A DNA stretch of 51,836 bases. It comes from a bacterium BMS3Abin02. Lineage in GTDB: Bacteria > Actinomycetota > Acidimicrobiia > Spongiisociales > UBA4744. Positions within the stretch are counted from its first letter, which is position 1; each line of letters starts with the position of its first letter. The translations under genes were made by a program, and so were the position numbers. The stretch spans positions 1 to 51,836 of the forward strand of contig BDSU01000042.1 of assembly GCA_002897675.1 (NCBI GenBank), given 5' to 3'. Under the pieces are notes generated by a model that was not told where the DNA came from, did no database searches, and worked only from the letters and a program-made list of their open reading frames with translations. Positions 20,154 through 24,487 of the stretch are shown piece by piece.

Positions 20154-21563
20154 CTATGACGTCTCACGGGACAAGTTGCCGACGCCTGTGCGCTGCATGT
20201 CACCCCAGACCTTCTTCCGCCGCGGGTTCCAGAACATCGCACGGACCCGCCACCAGACCGTTTGCTGTCGCAGCCCCAACTGCTCTCCGAGTGAGTAGAT
20301 CAGGAGCCGCCATGCCTCGCCGGGACCTTCGTAGTATCCGAATCGCTCGTCGAGGATCAGTCCGATCAGCGAGTTCGCCGCGCCGATCGCCAGGGCGACC
20401 AGGATGAGCGGAATCGCTATCTCCAGGTTGAGCAACCCGAGTACCAGCGACACAGGTATGACCACCCAACCGATCGCTTCGATGATCGGCGCAAGGAATT
20501 CGAACGCTATGAATGACGGCCAGGCAACCATTCCGATGAGCCCGTATCGCGGATTGAACAGCATTCCCCGGTACTGCCAGACGACCTGCATCAGTCCGCG
20601 ATGCCAGCGAATCCGCTGCTTGCGTAGCGCCTTCCTCGTCGCCGGCACTTCCGTCCATGCAACGGCATCAGGCGCGTAGACGATCCGATACGGCTTCCGA
20701 TTCTTGCGATAGTGCCGATGCAGCCGCATCGTCAGCTCCATGTCCTCGCCAAAGTGGCCCTGCCGGTAGCCGCCCACTTCGACCACGGCTTCCTTCTTGA
20801 AGATCCCGAATGCCCCCGACACGATCAACAGAGACCCAAGTGCCGACCACGCTGGACGTGCAGCGAGAAACGAGCGGATGTATTCGACGACCTGGACCAT
20901 CTCGAGCGGCCGCTTGGGAAGCGACACGTTCGTGACCCTGCCGCGCCGAACCTCGCACCCGTTGAGCGGGCGGACGTTGCCGCCCACGGCCACGGTTCGG
21001 GCACGATCTTCGACGAAGTGCCGGACCGCTCGCAGCAGACATTCCTCATCGAGCACCATGTCCGCGTCGGTGGCCATCACATAGGGATAGCGGGAGACGT
21101 TGATGCCGGCATTGATCGCATCTCCCTTGCCACCATTGTCTTTGTCGACAACGACGATCGGCAGGGGAAGCCGGGAACGATAGATGCGCCGGATGGACTG
21201 GGTCTGCAACTGGGGACAGTACGGGGTATCGACCAGCTCCATGCGGAACTCGTCGATGAGCCGCTGCAACGTGTCGTCGGTGCTTCCGTCGTTGACGACG
21301 ATGATTTCCTTCTTGGAGTACTTGAGCATTGCCATCGATCGCACCGACTCCGTGATGCCGACGGCCTCGTTGTACGCAGGGATGATGATCGACACGGGTG
21401 GAGTCGTGTCCGAGCTGAGCATGTCGTGAATGCGCCCAAACCGGGACGAGAACTGGTCGGCGTGCAGTGTGCGGTAGGAGACGAACGCGAGGAAGAACAG
21501 CTGCAGCTCCATGACGATGAAATACAGGAGTACCGAGTAGTTGAACACCTCGAGGAAACTCAT
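20154..21563 (-). CDS. Membrane-bound processive-type glycosyltransferase family 2
   Basis: A 469-residue GT2 enzyme of the N-acetylglucosaminyltransferase/hyaluronan-cellulose synthase type. An N-terminal membrane helix (residues 8-30) precedes the catalytic domain. That domain contains VSIIIPAYNEAVGI, VVNDGSTDDTLQRL (Asp92), the DxD in YVMATDADMVLD (Asp166/Asp168), HFGEDMELTMRL (the TED-like base at 272-274) and QRIRW (316-320), the processive Q/RxxRW signature. C-terminal membrane helices begin near residue 340 and could form a secretion channel. It would build a cell-surface polysaccharide; the sugar is unknown. The ATG overlaps the stop of the HEAT-repeat gene (TGATG-type overlap at 21560-21563), so the two proteins are coupled. 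The 40-residue N-terminal extension is normal for the group. Confidence 0.9.
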   Translation of the reverse strand: MSFLEVFNYSVLLYFIVMELQLFFLAFVSYRTLHADQFSSRFGRIHDMLSSDTTPPVSIIIPAYNEAVGITESVRSMAMLKYSKKEIIVVNDGSTDDTLQRLIDEFRMELVDTPYCPQLQTQSIRRIYRSRLPLPIVVVDKDNGGKGDAINAGINVSRYPYVMATDADMVLDEECLLRAVRHFVEDRARTVAVGGNVRPLNGCEVRRGRVTNVSLPKRPLEMVQVVEYIRSFLAARPAWSALGSLLIVSGAFGIFKKEAVVEVGGYRQGHFGEDMELTMRLHRHYRKNRKPYRIVYAPDAVAWTEVPATRKALRKQRIRWHRGLMQVVWQYRGMLFNPRYGLIGMVAWPSFIAFEFLAPIIEAIGWVVIPVSLVLGLLNLEIAIPLILVALAIGAANSLIGLILDERFGYYEGPGEAWRLLIYSLGEQLGLRQQTVWWRVRAMFWNPRRKKVWGDMQRTGVGNLSRETS

Positions 21564-22660
21564 CCGGCCTCTCTCACCGCCGTATCGTCCGCCCCGAGCG
21601 AGCCCACGACAGGCAGATTCCCGTTCAACATCAACTGCTCTCTCGCGGCATCGCGGGCGAACGCGTCCTGGTCGCCTTGGGCGTCGATCAGCGCCTGGCG
21701 ACCACCAGGGATCAGCGCAAGCGCTTCGGCGGCATTACGACGCACCCACCACTGACGGTCCCGGAGGGCTTCGATCAGAACGTCGACGGCTCGAGGATCC
21801 ATCCGTTCGCCAAGAGCCTTGACCGCCTGGGCACGGACTTCCCACGCAGGATCGGCCACGGCACGCATCAACGCCGGAACACACTGCGGCGTACCGGCGG
21901 TTCCCAGAGCGGCAGCCGCCCGAATCCTCAACTCGACCTCATCGCCATCCAGCGCGCTCAACAGCGCCGGCTCCGCGCCCACATCACCGATGGAGCCGAG
22001 CACCCTTGCGACGAGCGGCAGCCGACGGCCGGGGCGGTCCACCGCCGGGTCGGACAGAATGAGATACCGAGCCAGAACGGGCACCGAGACGGTGCCGAGC
22101 TTGACCAGAGAATCGGCGATTCTGCTGGCATTCCAATCCGTCTCCTCTTCCAACAGTTTCACGAGTGGCGGCACCGCCCGCGGATCCTTCAGCCCGGCCA
22201 GAGCGTCGGCGGCTTGCACGCGGACCTCCGGGACGCGATCACCGAGGGCAGCCAGCAGGGCATCCGCCGTACTCGGGTCACCGAGTTCCGCAAGAGCACT
22301 GGCGGCTACGACCCTCCGCTCCCTTCGCCGGGATCTCTCCAGGTCCCAGACAAAGCGCTGAACGATGCCGAGGTCCCTCGCAATCCGGAGGAGGTTGGCC
22401 CGTTCGCGGCCCTGGACAGACCGCAGGAAATCCAGCAGTGTATCGAGAAAGACTCGGTCTGCAGCCCAGGAGCGGAGCGTGTGCAGCGGATAGCCGGACC
22501 GTGTCACGATCTCGCTGAGCGCTCCGATATAGGAGGCGCGGCGAAACTGGTCGAAGCGGCCTTTGAAGTGCCCGATCACCTTGGTCGCGAACAGCCACGC
22601 CGCAATCAGTCCCGACGACGTGACCACGACCACCAGCACCGGCACCAACTGTGCACTCAT
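21560..22660 (-). CDS. Membrane-anchored HEAT-repeat protein
   Basis: A 366-residue protein: an N-terminal membrane helix (LVPVLVVVVTSSGLIAAWLF) and a basic stretch, then an alpha-solenoid from about residue 110. The repeats are regular 30-35-residue units: RRVVAASALAELGDPSTADA, VRVQAADALAGLKDPRAVPP, RLPLVARVLGSIGDVGAEPA, LRIRAAAALGTAGTPQCVP, EVRAQAVKALGERMDPRAV and WVRRNAAEALALIPGG. These match HEAT/PBS-lyase-type repeats, a protein-binding scaffold. It probably docks on the cytoplasmic side of the membrane next to the GT2 enzyme whose start overlaps its stop. Partner and function are inferred from coupling only. Confidence 0.88.
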   Translation of the reverse strand: MSAQLVPVLVVVVTSSGLIAAWLFATKVIGHFKGRFDQFRRASYIGALSEIVTRSGYPLHTLRSWAADRVFLDTLLDFLRSVQGRERANLLRIARDLGIVQRFVWDLERSRRRERRVVAASALAELGDPSTADALLAALGDRVPEVRVQAADALAGLKDPRAVPPLVKLLEEETDWNASRIADSLVKLGTVSVPVLARYLILSDPAVDRPGRRLPLVARVLGSIGDVGAEPALLSALDGDEVELRIRAAAALGTAGTPQCVPALMRAVADPAWEVRAQAVKALGERMDPRAVDVLIEALRDRQWWVRRNAAEALALIPGGRQALIDAQGDQDAFARDAAREQLMLNGNLPVVGSLGADDTAVREAG

Positions 22661-22822
22661 CGTTCAGCTTTCATTCACTCATAACGTCGGCCATGAGTCA
22701 CGGTGAGTTGAACGATTCGAGTGACCGGAAGGTGCTGCTCCCTCGTGGTCCTCAGGCGCCGGCGGCAGCCGGCGATCGAATTCGGCGGGCCGGCCACACC
22801 CGCCGATGCCGTGCTACGCCCC

Positions 22823-23209
22823 CTACTCCTCGAGACTCACACCGGCGGCGCGGAGCTGCACTCGCACCCGTGCGAGGACCTCGCGTACATTGAACGGCTT
22901 GCGCACGAAATCGACGGCACCGAGATCGAGACAGGCGACGATATCCTCTTCACTGGTGAGACCGGAGAGCATGATGACCGGAAGATCGACCCCGTCATCC
23001 GACCACCTCTGAAGCACTTCCGCTCCCAACAGGCCCGGCATCACCTGATCGAGAAGCGCAAGGTCGAATTCACCGCTCTTACCCATCTCATACGCGTCGA
23101 TACCGTCGTAGACGGCAGTCACCCGCGCGCCAGACGCTTCGAGACTCCTGGAGACGAGCATTGAGACGACCCGGTCGTCTTCAGCAACGAGTATTCTTGC
23201 TGCACCCAT
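22823..23209 (-). CDS. Single-domain response regulator (receiver only)
   Basis: A 128-residue stand-alone receiver. The acidic pocket is ILVAEDDRVV (Glu10-Asp12), the phosphoacceptor is Asp54 in DLALLDQVMPG, the switch Ser82 is in VIMLSGL, and Lys104 is in VDFVRKPF. There is no output domain, so it must act by protein contact, for example on the neighbouring HEAT or glycosyltransferase proteins, or as a phosphorelay intermediate. No histidine kinase is encoded nearby. The ATG at 23209 lacks a ribosome site and lies 8 nt after TAGGGT, part of a CGAGGCACTAG box, so it has its own leaderless promoter. The HEAT gene starts 163 bp downstream and could be co-transcribed. Confidence 0.92.
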   Translation of the reverse strand: MGAARILVAEDDRVVSMLVSRSLEASGARVTAVYDGIDAYEMGKSGEFDLALLDQVMPGLLGAEVLQRWSDDGVDLPVIMLSGLTSEEDIVACLDLGAVDFVRKPFNVREVLARVRVQLRAAGVSLEE

Positions 23210-23217
23210 GCTCGCTC

Positions 23218-23231
23218 ACCCTAGTGCCTCG
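23218..23231 (-). promoter_or_regulatory. CGAGGCACTAG box with -10 TAGGGT (response regulator promoter)
   Basis: On the minus strand CGAGGCACTAG (23221-23231) runs into TAGGGT (23218-23223), 8 nt before the ATG at 23209. The 25 nt upstream resemble those before the box at 12859: TTCCTGGCCGACAAGAC here versus TTCCTGACCGGCAGAAC there. Confidence 0.6.
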
Positions 23232-23346
23232 ACAGACACCTCACCTGTGCCGTCTTGTCGGCCAGGAATGCCTCCTGCGGCGTCCTCGCCCTCGACGTGG
23301 TGCGCGACCACGCCCTCGTCGTGTGTCCTTGTGAGCGACGAGACTC

Positions 23347-23382
23347 CGTATCGACACCCCAAACGTTACCGGCCAAGGCACC
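23347..23382 (+). repeat. Degenerate copy of the promoter-type repeat
   Basis: CGACACCCCAAACGTTAC followed by CGGCCAAGGCACC resembles 27528-27560 (CGACACCCCGAAAGTTAC, then TGGCCGAGGCACTAG) at about 29 of 33 positions by eye. The terminal box is decayed here. With the intact box at 23221-23231 in the opposite orientation, it bounds a 160-bp gene-free segment. Confidence 0.5.
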
Positions 23383-23428
23383 GGCTGCGCCACGGCCCGT
23401 TTACGACCATCCCGGAGGCGTTTTCCCT

Positions 23429-24487
23429 TCAACCGCTCTCTGCCGCTGCAACCAGCCAGGTCACGACCGGGACGTAGGCACGGTAGAAGAACGCAGAATC
23501 CACGGTCTGCGGAAGCGTCCTCACCACCGCCGCACTCCCGGCGACGCTTTGCAGGGGAAACGACACCGCCGCTTCACTGACGTCACCGGCAACATATATC
23601 GTCCGTGCGCCGCGGATGATCATCGGCGCGTGAGCCGGCAGCCCGCGGCGTTCCAGAGCGACCGCTCCGGAGGAGGTCACGGGAAGCTCCAGCCAGGCAT
23701 CGACGGTGCCCTTCGCCTCGACGATTTCGAACCAGTTGCCGAAAGGAACATCGAAGTCCCACCCTTGCGGTGTGTGCCCTCTCACCTCTACCAGATGGCC
23801 GGTGATCTCCGCTCCCGACAACACGAACCTATCTCTCTCCGAGACCATGACGATGCCACTCCCCGTATAGTCCCAGTCGCCGGTCCGCAACGACTCCGGT
23901 ACCGTCGACAGATCCTCGAACCACCTTCCCGACCATCCGCTGGACTCGACCGAGAACAGCGCTTCGAGCCTCTCCCTCGCCTCGGCCGGAGTTGGGTCGC
24001 CGAGAATCTGCGTCTCCCCGTAGAGCCAGGTACCCCGTTCGTACCAGCCGGAGATGCGTTCGACGTCCGAGCTCTCGAGTCGGCCTGAGACCCGCCGCCG
24101 CCCCTGGGGATCGATCACGCCTTCGTCGTTGACGTACACCCCGTAGGCGTCGACCAGCATCACGAGATCGGGCCTTGTGCTCGGCCACTGACCGATCGGT
24201 CCACCACCGGGCGCGGCGCCGATGTATCCCTCACTCACCGAAAACGGAACCTTCAGCGAGTGGAGAACGAGGCCCAAAGCCTGGTGCTCACGATACGAAT
24301 CATCGAGAACCGTCTCGTCAAAGACGACCAAGGAAAGGTCACTCACCGGTCGGCTGCGCCATATCGCCCATCCCACCGATGGCCAGGCCAGCAAAGGAAC
24401 CAGCACGAACACGACGATGGACGTGATCAGCCGGTGGTAGCGGCGCTGAGAGCGCGACAGTCCGGTTGCGACGGAACGATCTCTCAT
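23429..24487 (-). CDS. Exported/membrane-anchored protein of unknown function next to the GT2 locus
   Basis: A 352-residue protein with one clear N-terminal membrane segment (residues 20-44, LITSIVVFVLVPLLAWPSVG) and the rest probably outside. Recognisable but unnamed blocks are LVVFDETVLDDSYREHQALG, RPDLVMLVDAYGVYVND, GWYERGTWLYGETQILGDPT, ARERLEALFSVESSGWSGRW and WDYTGSGIVMV. The first half alternates strands and helices like a Rossmann or glutamine-amidotransferase-type fold, without a visible catalytic Cys. The second half is beta-rich. I cannot name the family. The position upstream of the receiver, HEAT and GT2 genes on the same strand suggests a role in polysaccharide assembly or modification outside the cell (inference). 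Confidence 0.75.
   Translation of the reverse strand: MRDRSVATGLSRSQRRYHRLITSIVVFVLVPLLAWPSVGWAIWRSRPVSDLSLVVFDETVLDDSYREHQALGLVLHSLKVPFSVSEGYIGAAPGGGPIGQWPSTRPDLVMLVDAYGVYVNDEGVIDPQGRRRVSGRLESSDVERISGWYERGTWLYGETQILGDPTPAEARERLEALFSVESSGWSGRWFEDLSTVPESLRTGDWDYTGSGIVMVSERDRFVLSGAEITGHLVEVRGHTPQGWDFDVPFGNWFEIVEAKGTVDAWLELPVTSSGAVALERRGLPAHAPMIIRGARTIYVAGDVSEAAVSFPLQSVAGSAAVVRTLPQTVDSAFFYRAYVPVVTWLVAAAESG

Follow-up and report, generated by a model that had tools for sequence, protein, structure and literature searches.

How is a polysaccharide synthase controlled when its gene is accompanied by those of a receiver and a HEAT-repeat protein? The classification of known synthase-dependent polysaccharide systems relies mostly on the parts that bind cyclic di-GMP (c-di-GMP). 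The question is raised by a locus within a 51,836-nt stretch of DNA from the bacterium BMS3Abin02 (Acidimicrobiia; GenBank assembly GCA_002897675.1, contig BDSU01000042.1), the whole of which is called here the window. Reading of its open reading frames (ORFs) gives the transcription order X352, REC, HEAT, and GT2, all on the minus strand. It is proposed, with a probability of roughly 0.6, that the locus encodes a synthase-dependent surface-polysaccharide system, in which the HEAT protein partners GT2 and takes its input from the receiver. The original prediction of a four-gene locus on one strand was confirmed at the following coordinates, with a 4-bp overlap between the HEAT and GT2 ORFs:

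23429-24487, minus strand: X352, 352 aa, N-terminal transmembrane (TM) anchor and a predicted extracytoplasmic domain like class I glutamine amidotransferases (GATase1-like)
22823-23209, minus strand: REC, 128 aa, stand-alone receiver
21560-22660, minus strand: HEAT, 366 aa, N-terminal TM helix followed by HEAT repeats
20154-21563, minus strand: GT2, 469 aa, membrane-embedded processive-type family 2 glycosyltransferase, the catalytic subunit

There is good support for the components that make this a polysaccharide synthase of HEAT and GT2 linked to a receiver. GT2 matches the Pfam families PF00535, PF13641, and PF13632 (1e-18 to 1e-22), contains the DxD, GED, and QRIRW motifs, and has one N-terminal TM helix and further ones at the C-terminus, in agreement with the processive type assigned to it earlier. 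The closest NCBIfam model is PgaC/IcaA (TIGR03937), with 149 bits against a cut-off of 422.3, and CelA (TIGR03030) gives 44.1 bits against 699.1; identification of GT2 as PgaC, NodC, or CelA was ruled out, as the scores are far under the cut-offs. REC consists of PF00072 alone (7.6e-24, 84.5 bits, residues 6–116 of 128), and so the description of it as an output-less receiver holds. The phosphorylation pocket is intact (E10/D11, D54, S82, and K104); with these residues and no output domain, REC is a single-domain response regulator. HEAT matches PF13646 (HEAT_2) above the Pfam cut-off in five stretches (2.6e-51, 172.3 bits), and this family was found in just four ORFs of the 2.5-Mb genome. The nearest named HEAT families are phycobilin lyases, CpcE (65 against the NCBIfam cut-off of 330) and CpcF (44 against 220); assignment to either was rejected since their equivalog cut-offs are not reached. 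The basic flank that follows the TM helix of HEAT suggests that its repeats are on the cytoplasmic side, the same as REC; the topology of both HEAT and X352 was derived from simple hydropathy and charge counts. An unusually long HEAT protein (1164 aa) was seen in the Gemmatimonadales version of the locus (L141:9110-12604, minus strand), together with a REC-HD-GYP protein.

Comparison with the nearest genome indicated purifying selection on all four genes, with ratios of nonsynonymous to synonymous substitution rates of approximately 0.17 for X352, 0.04 for REC, 0.12 for HEAT, and 0.13 for GT2. The Pfam scan of the locus proteins revealed no GGDEF, EAL, or PilZ domain, the Rfam scan near the locus no riboswitch or other RNA, and the promoter and terminator scans nothing above shuffled sequences.

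Distribution and fusions of the gene set

The suggestion that these families belong together was borne out by a gene-neighbourhood survey, in which they were found together in three phyla, and even fused. X352 was present in 9 of 59 sampled genomes of the window's order (Acidimicrobiia), and all nine have the four genes together. Across the class, the REC-HEAT-GT2 order was observed at each of 20 further loci with GT2 homologues, none of which has the flanks of the window, and in most homologous loci REC is directly upstream of HEAT. When an X352 profile was run against named genomes, the set was found in Lysinibacillus, Paenibacillus, Aerococcus, Domibacillus, and Algoriphagus. The genes are arranged as REC-HEAT-GT2-X352 in Bacillota and as REC-HEAT-GT2-YaiO-X352 in Bacteroidota, mostly with short overlaps. 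Even samples of 299 Bacillota and 247 Bacteroidota genomes contained 12 and 11 genomes with X352, respectively, and at 16 of the 23 X352 loci REC, HEAT, and GT2 all lie within about 8 kb. Where a genome has only a lone X352, HEAT-GT2 is encoded elsewhere in nine of ten cases, usually with REC; genome G703 is the one without it. Among Bacillota, this type of GT2 is present in 11 of 12 genomes with X352 and in 12 of 287 genomes without it (Fisher test, 4e-13), a value that ignores phylogeny; five of the X352-containing genomes supplied rows of the GT2 alignment and profile used. In the 12 Bacillota genomes with GT2 and without X352, HEAT is always beside or fused to GT2, and REC is there in eight. 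Therefore, the invariant core of the set is HEAT-GT2, to which REC usually provides the input and X352 is often added. The association is genuine and ancient. Genomes of a sister family also have an extra REC-HEAT-GT2 copy that lacks X352 (L066 and L067).

Protein fusions are standard evidence that genes which are separate elsewhere encode interacting products. In one Bacillota genome (L148), HEAT, GT2, and X352 form one chain of 1378 residues, which includes a linker, and in another (L212) HEAT and GT2 form one of 1004 residues. A glycoside-hydrolase-like region is joined to HEAT in L206 and to X352 in Bacilli. The family of this region is included in many homologous sets and is absent from the whole genome of the window; its members are located as follows:

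L082:9153-11192, L077:10420-12609, L148:565-2679, and L213-L215: family resembling glycoside hydrolases, without a match in Pfam or NCBIfam, joined to X352 (Bacilli) or HEAT (L206) or encoded separately next to HEAT-GT2

The structure model of its C-terminal region was too poor (predicted local distance difference test score, pLDDT, 56.6), so just weak sequence evidence was used, namely a PDB profile match to a GH2 catalytic domain (E 0.0069) and a phmmer match to a beta-glucosidase (0.0013). Diderm Bacteroidota versions of the set add a YaiO outer-membrane barrel with tetratricopeptide repeats, and in two of the Bacteroidota loci a sulfatase/alkaline-phosphatase-superfamily domain (PF00884) is fused to GT2 (L092:9095-12628 and L160:9536-13021, both on the minus strand), where it possibly adds a charged group to the polymer. 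The YaiO, glycoside-hydrolase-like, and sulfatase partners are consistent with a chain that is exported, trimmed, and sometimes modified. The earlier statement that no polysaccharide modification gene is present was right for the locus, but it does not extend to the relatives with a glycoside-hydrolase-like partner or a sulfatase-superfamily domain. A secreted protein adjoining the set at L077:9652-10398 appears by eye to be GH16 beta-glucanase-like and has no Pfam match.

The X352 protein

X352 has no match in Pfam or NCBIfam, so that the hidden Markov model search left it, as expected, outside the characterised sequence families, and the sequence search of PDB gave nothing meaningful. Its structure was modelled with a pLDDT of 87.5 and a predicted template modelling score of 0.86, and the predicted fold, behind the single N-terminal TM helix, is GATase1-like. 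The Rossmann-like first half proposed originally was close to this. Compared with solved structures, the model gives Z up to 14.8 (for 3rht, Z 14.7 and a root-mean-square deviation of 3.0 over 193 residues). Closest among these structures are GATase1-like proteins, the middle domain of GH42, and ThuA-like proteins, with IFT52 and OST48/Wbp1 lower, and Foldseek matched the model to ThuA-like proteins and HisH. The fold is common to X352, the GATase1-like/ThuA proteins, and the GIFT domains of IFT52 and OST48/Wbp1; X352 differs from them in its TM anchor, its own invariant acidic residues, the absence of cysteine, and a sequence identity of about 10%. A common fold alone is no proof of function.

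The X352 of the window contains no cysteine at all, and it was rejected as a class I glutamine amidotransferase enzyme because the nucleophilic residue is missing. Three residues, Asp57, Asp113, and Glu158, are invariant in 27 X352 sequences and in the model are at or just past the ends of strands 53–57, 108–112, and 154–158. Folds of this kind hold the active or binding site at those strand ends, and on this ground X352 probably has a polar functional site distinct from that of an amidotransferase. By topology of the model, Glu158 would be at the end of the strand that carries the cysteine in amidotransferases. The basic residues preceding the TM helix suggest that the domain is outside the cell. 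Two further occurrences of X352 were noted: after a lone X352 comes a membrane protein of 495 aa carrying a phosphatase-like HCxxxxxR motif (L029:10490-11977), and in the plasmid collection one relative was found, from Paenibacillus cellulosilyticus, where it is without annotation.

Proposed mechanism and alternative explanations

In the proposed system, GT2 would polymerise a nucleotide-sugar and pass the chain through the membrane. HEAT would be anchored beside it as an obligatory partner subunit with cytoplasmic repeats. REC, phosphorylated by a kinase that may be encoded elsewhere in the genome, would contact HEAT, or HEAT-GT2, as a protein and in this state alter the activity of the synthase. 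X352, on the external side of the membrane, could handle or modify the emerging chain, standing in for BcsB/PgaB-type parts. A further-reaching version of this model describes a separate and widespread class of synthase-dependent exopolysaccharide (EPS) systems that extends at least over Actinomycetota, Bacillota, and Bacteroidota. In this class, the HEAT subunit would take the place of PilZ/BcsB-type control and convert the receiver state into polymer output, while the cysteine-less X352 would use its Asp/Asp/Glu site on the chain as it emerges; this version is advanced tentatively, as we would give it somewhat less than even odds.

Several observations weigh against the proposed system. The genes flanking the locus (PHP, murJ, epimerase, thiolase, and glpX) are conserved within the window's order and keep the same order in close relatives, so co-occurrence within that order alone proves little, and the four genes might be coincidental neighbours held by general gene-order conservation. 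The gaps around REC in the window are also wide, 219 bp on the X352 side and 162 bp on the HEAT side. However, the grouping recurs, between different flanking genes, in further families of the class and in further phyla, fusions are seen as well, and HEAT_2 is rare in the genome; pure synteny was rejected for REC-HEAT-GT2 on the cross-family and cross-phylum loci, and coincidence is left as a highly improbable explanation. The operon is clearer in relatives from another family (e.g., L016 and L082) than in the window because the gaps around REC shrink there or turn into overlaps. The proximity of murJ in the window's order is also what would be expected if GT2 made a short glycan or glycolipid instead of a polymer, with HEAT and REC localising it for envelope growth and X352 processing the glycan. 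The product of GT2 cannot be read from its sequence, and the low scores to PgaC, NodC, and CelA agree with such a role. It is nevertheless doubtful, as QxxRW and the TM layout are typical of processive GT2s, homologous operons include the YaiO export barrel and glycoside-hydrolase-like partners, and no murJ neighbourhood was found at the class loci outside the sister families.

The acceptor aspartate is lost in several homologous receivers, where the residue is Asn (L082 and L086), Glu (L079, L148, and L200), or Gly (L203), and in the sets L206, L207, L209, and L213 REC is not beside HEAT. Phosphorylation control, as predicted, is therefore plausible for the window, where the pocket is intact, but cannot be universal, and receivers without the acceptor may serve as a fixed binding module in some lineages. 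The inputs of homologous sets are varied (single receivers, Hpt-REC-REC, Hpt-REC-GGDEF-REC, degenerate GGDEF with REC, and REC-HD-GYP, some assigned by eye), and in L151 a hybrid histidine kinase is encoded directly upstream of REC-HEAT-GT2. Since c-di-GMP domains are added in some of these sets, the synthase might be controlled by c-di-GMP like Yda or Mxd, with REC as what is left of an Hpt-REC-GGDEF-REC input protein, or as its adaptor, and the second messenger bound elsewhere. GGDEF accompanies REC in L077, L079, L144, L145, and L148, an additional REC-GGDEF gene with an intact GGEEF is present in L151, an HD-GYP domain in the L141 operon, and a full-length GGDEF domain is encoded outside the locus in the window's genome. 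Likewise, YdaK of Bacillus subtilis is a c-di-GMP receptor within an EPS operon (PMC7064775). The claim that the receiver acts instead of c-di-GMP is thus not established, because relatives carry GGDEF or HD-GYP and the genome has a GGDEF protein. We consider c-di-GMP control unlikely all the same, though a stronger contender than a short glycan: no GGDEF, EAL, or PilZ domain is in the window locus, the GGDEF parts of relatives are mostly degenerate by eye (L144 and L148 among them), and it is the receiver, often alone, that is the constant part in the Acidimicrobiia sample.

If the proposed system is correct, then a receiver and a HEAT subunit travelling with the synthase would connect matrix production to two-component signalling by another route, and a function would be given to two unnamed families, X352 and the glycoside-hydrolase-like partner. 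The set has culturable hosts in Lysinibacillus, Paenibacillus, and Algoriphagus, which makes direct testing feasible.

Comparison with known systems

Among the results of open-access literature searches, no description of the set was found, which does not prove that none exists. A HEAT subunit is not described, in the passages considered, for Ccs (PMC7710045), for Yda (PMC7064775), or in the classification of synthase-dependent operons (PMC7112194); in the last one the word HEAT is absent. The system closest to the locus by synthase is Pga/Ica, which produces poly-N-acetylglucosamine and whose PgaC/IcaA is the most similar NCBIfam model; it is set apart by the score of GT2 (149 against 422 bits) and by the CE4 deacetylase PgaB/IcaB, absent among the scanned proteins of the locus and its neighbourhood. 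Bcs and clostridial Ccs have in common with the set a GT2 synthase, a membrane partner, and, considering related operons, a glycoside hydrolase, whereas the locus is without PilZ and its CelA score is 44 against 699. Ccs consists of GH5, PilZ-GT2, CcsB, MBOAT, and DHHW, with HEAT and REC not mentioned in the passages considered (PMC7710045). YdaJKLMN of B. subtilis is likewise a putative EPS operon of a monoderm with its own regulator gene; judged by its description (PMC7064775), the window differs in its plain receiver and in the presence of a HEAT protein. The Mxd machinery of Shewanella oneidensis, also glycosyltransferase-based and producing an exopolysaccharide, has a regulator contacted by a single-domain receiver; in the passages considered, and compared by description, neither a HEAT subunit nor X352 is reported for it. 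There, CheY3 binds MxdA, and phosphorylated CheY3 is required for the biofilm (PMC7666153), so control of a polysaccharide machine by receiver contact, as suggested for REC and HEAT, has a precedent.

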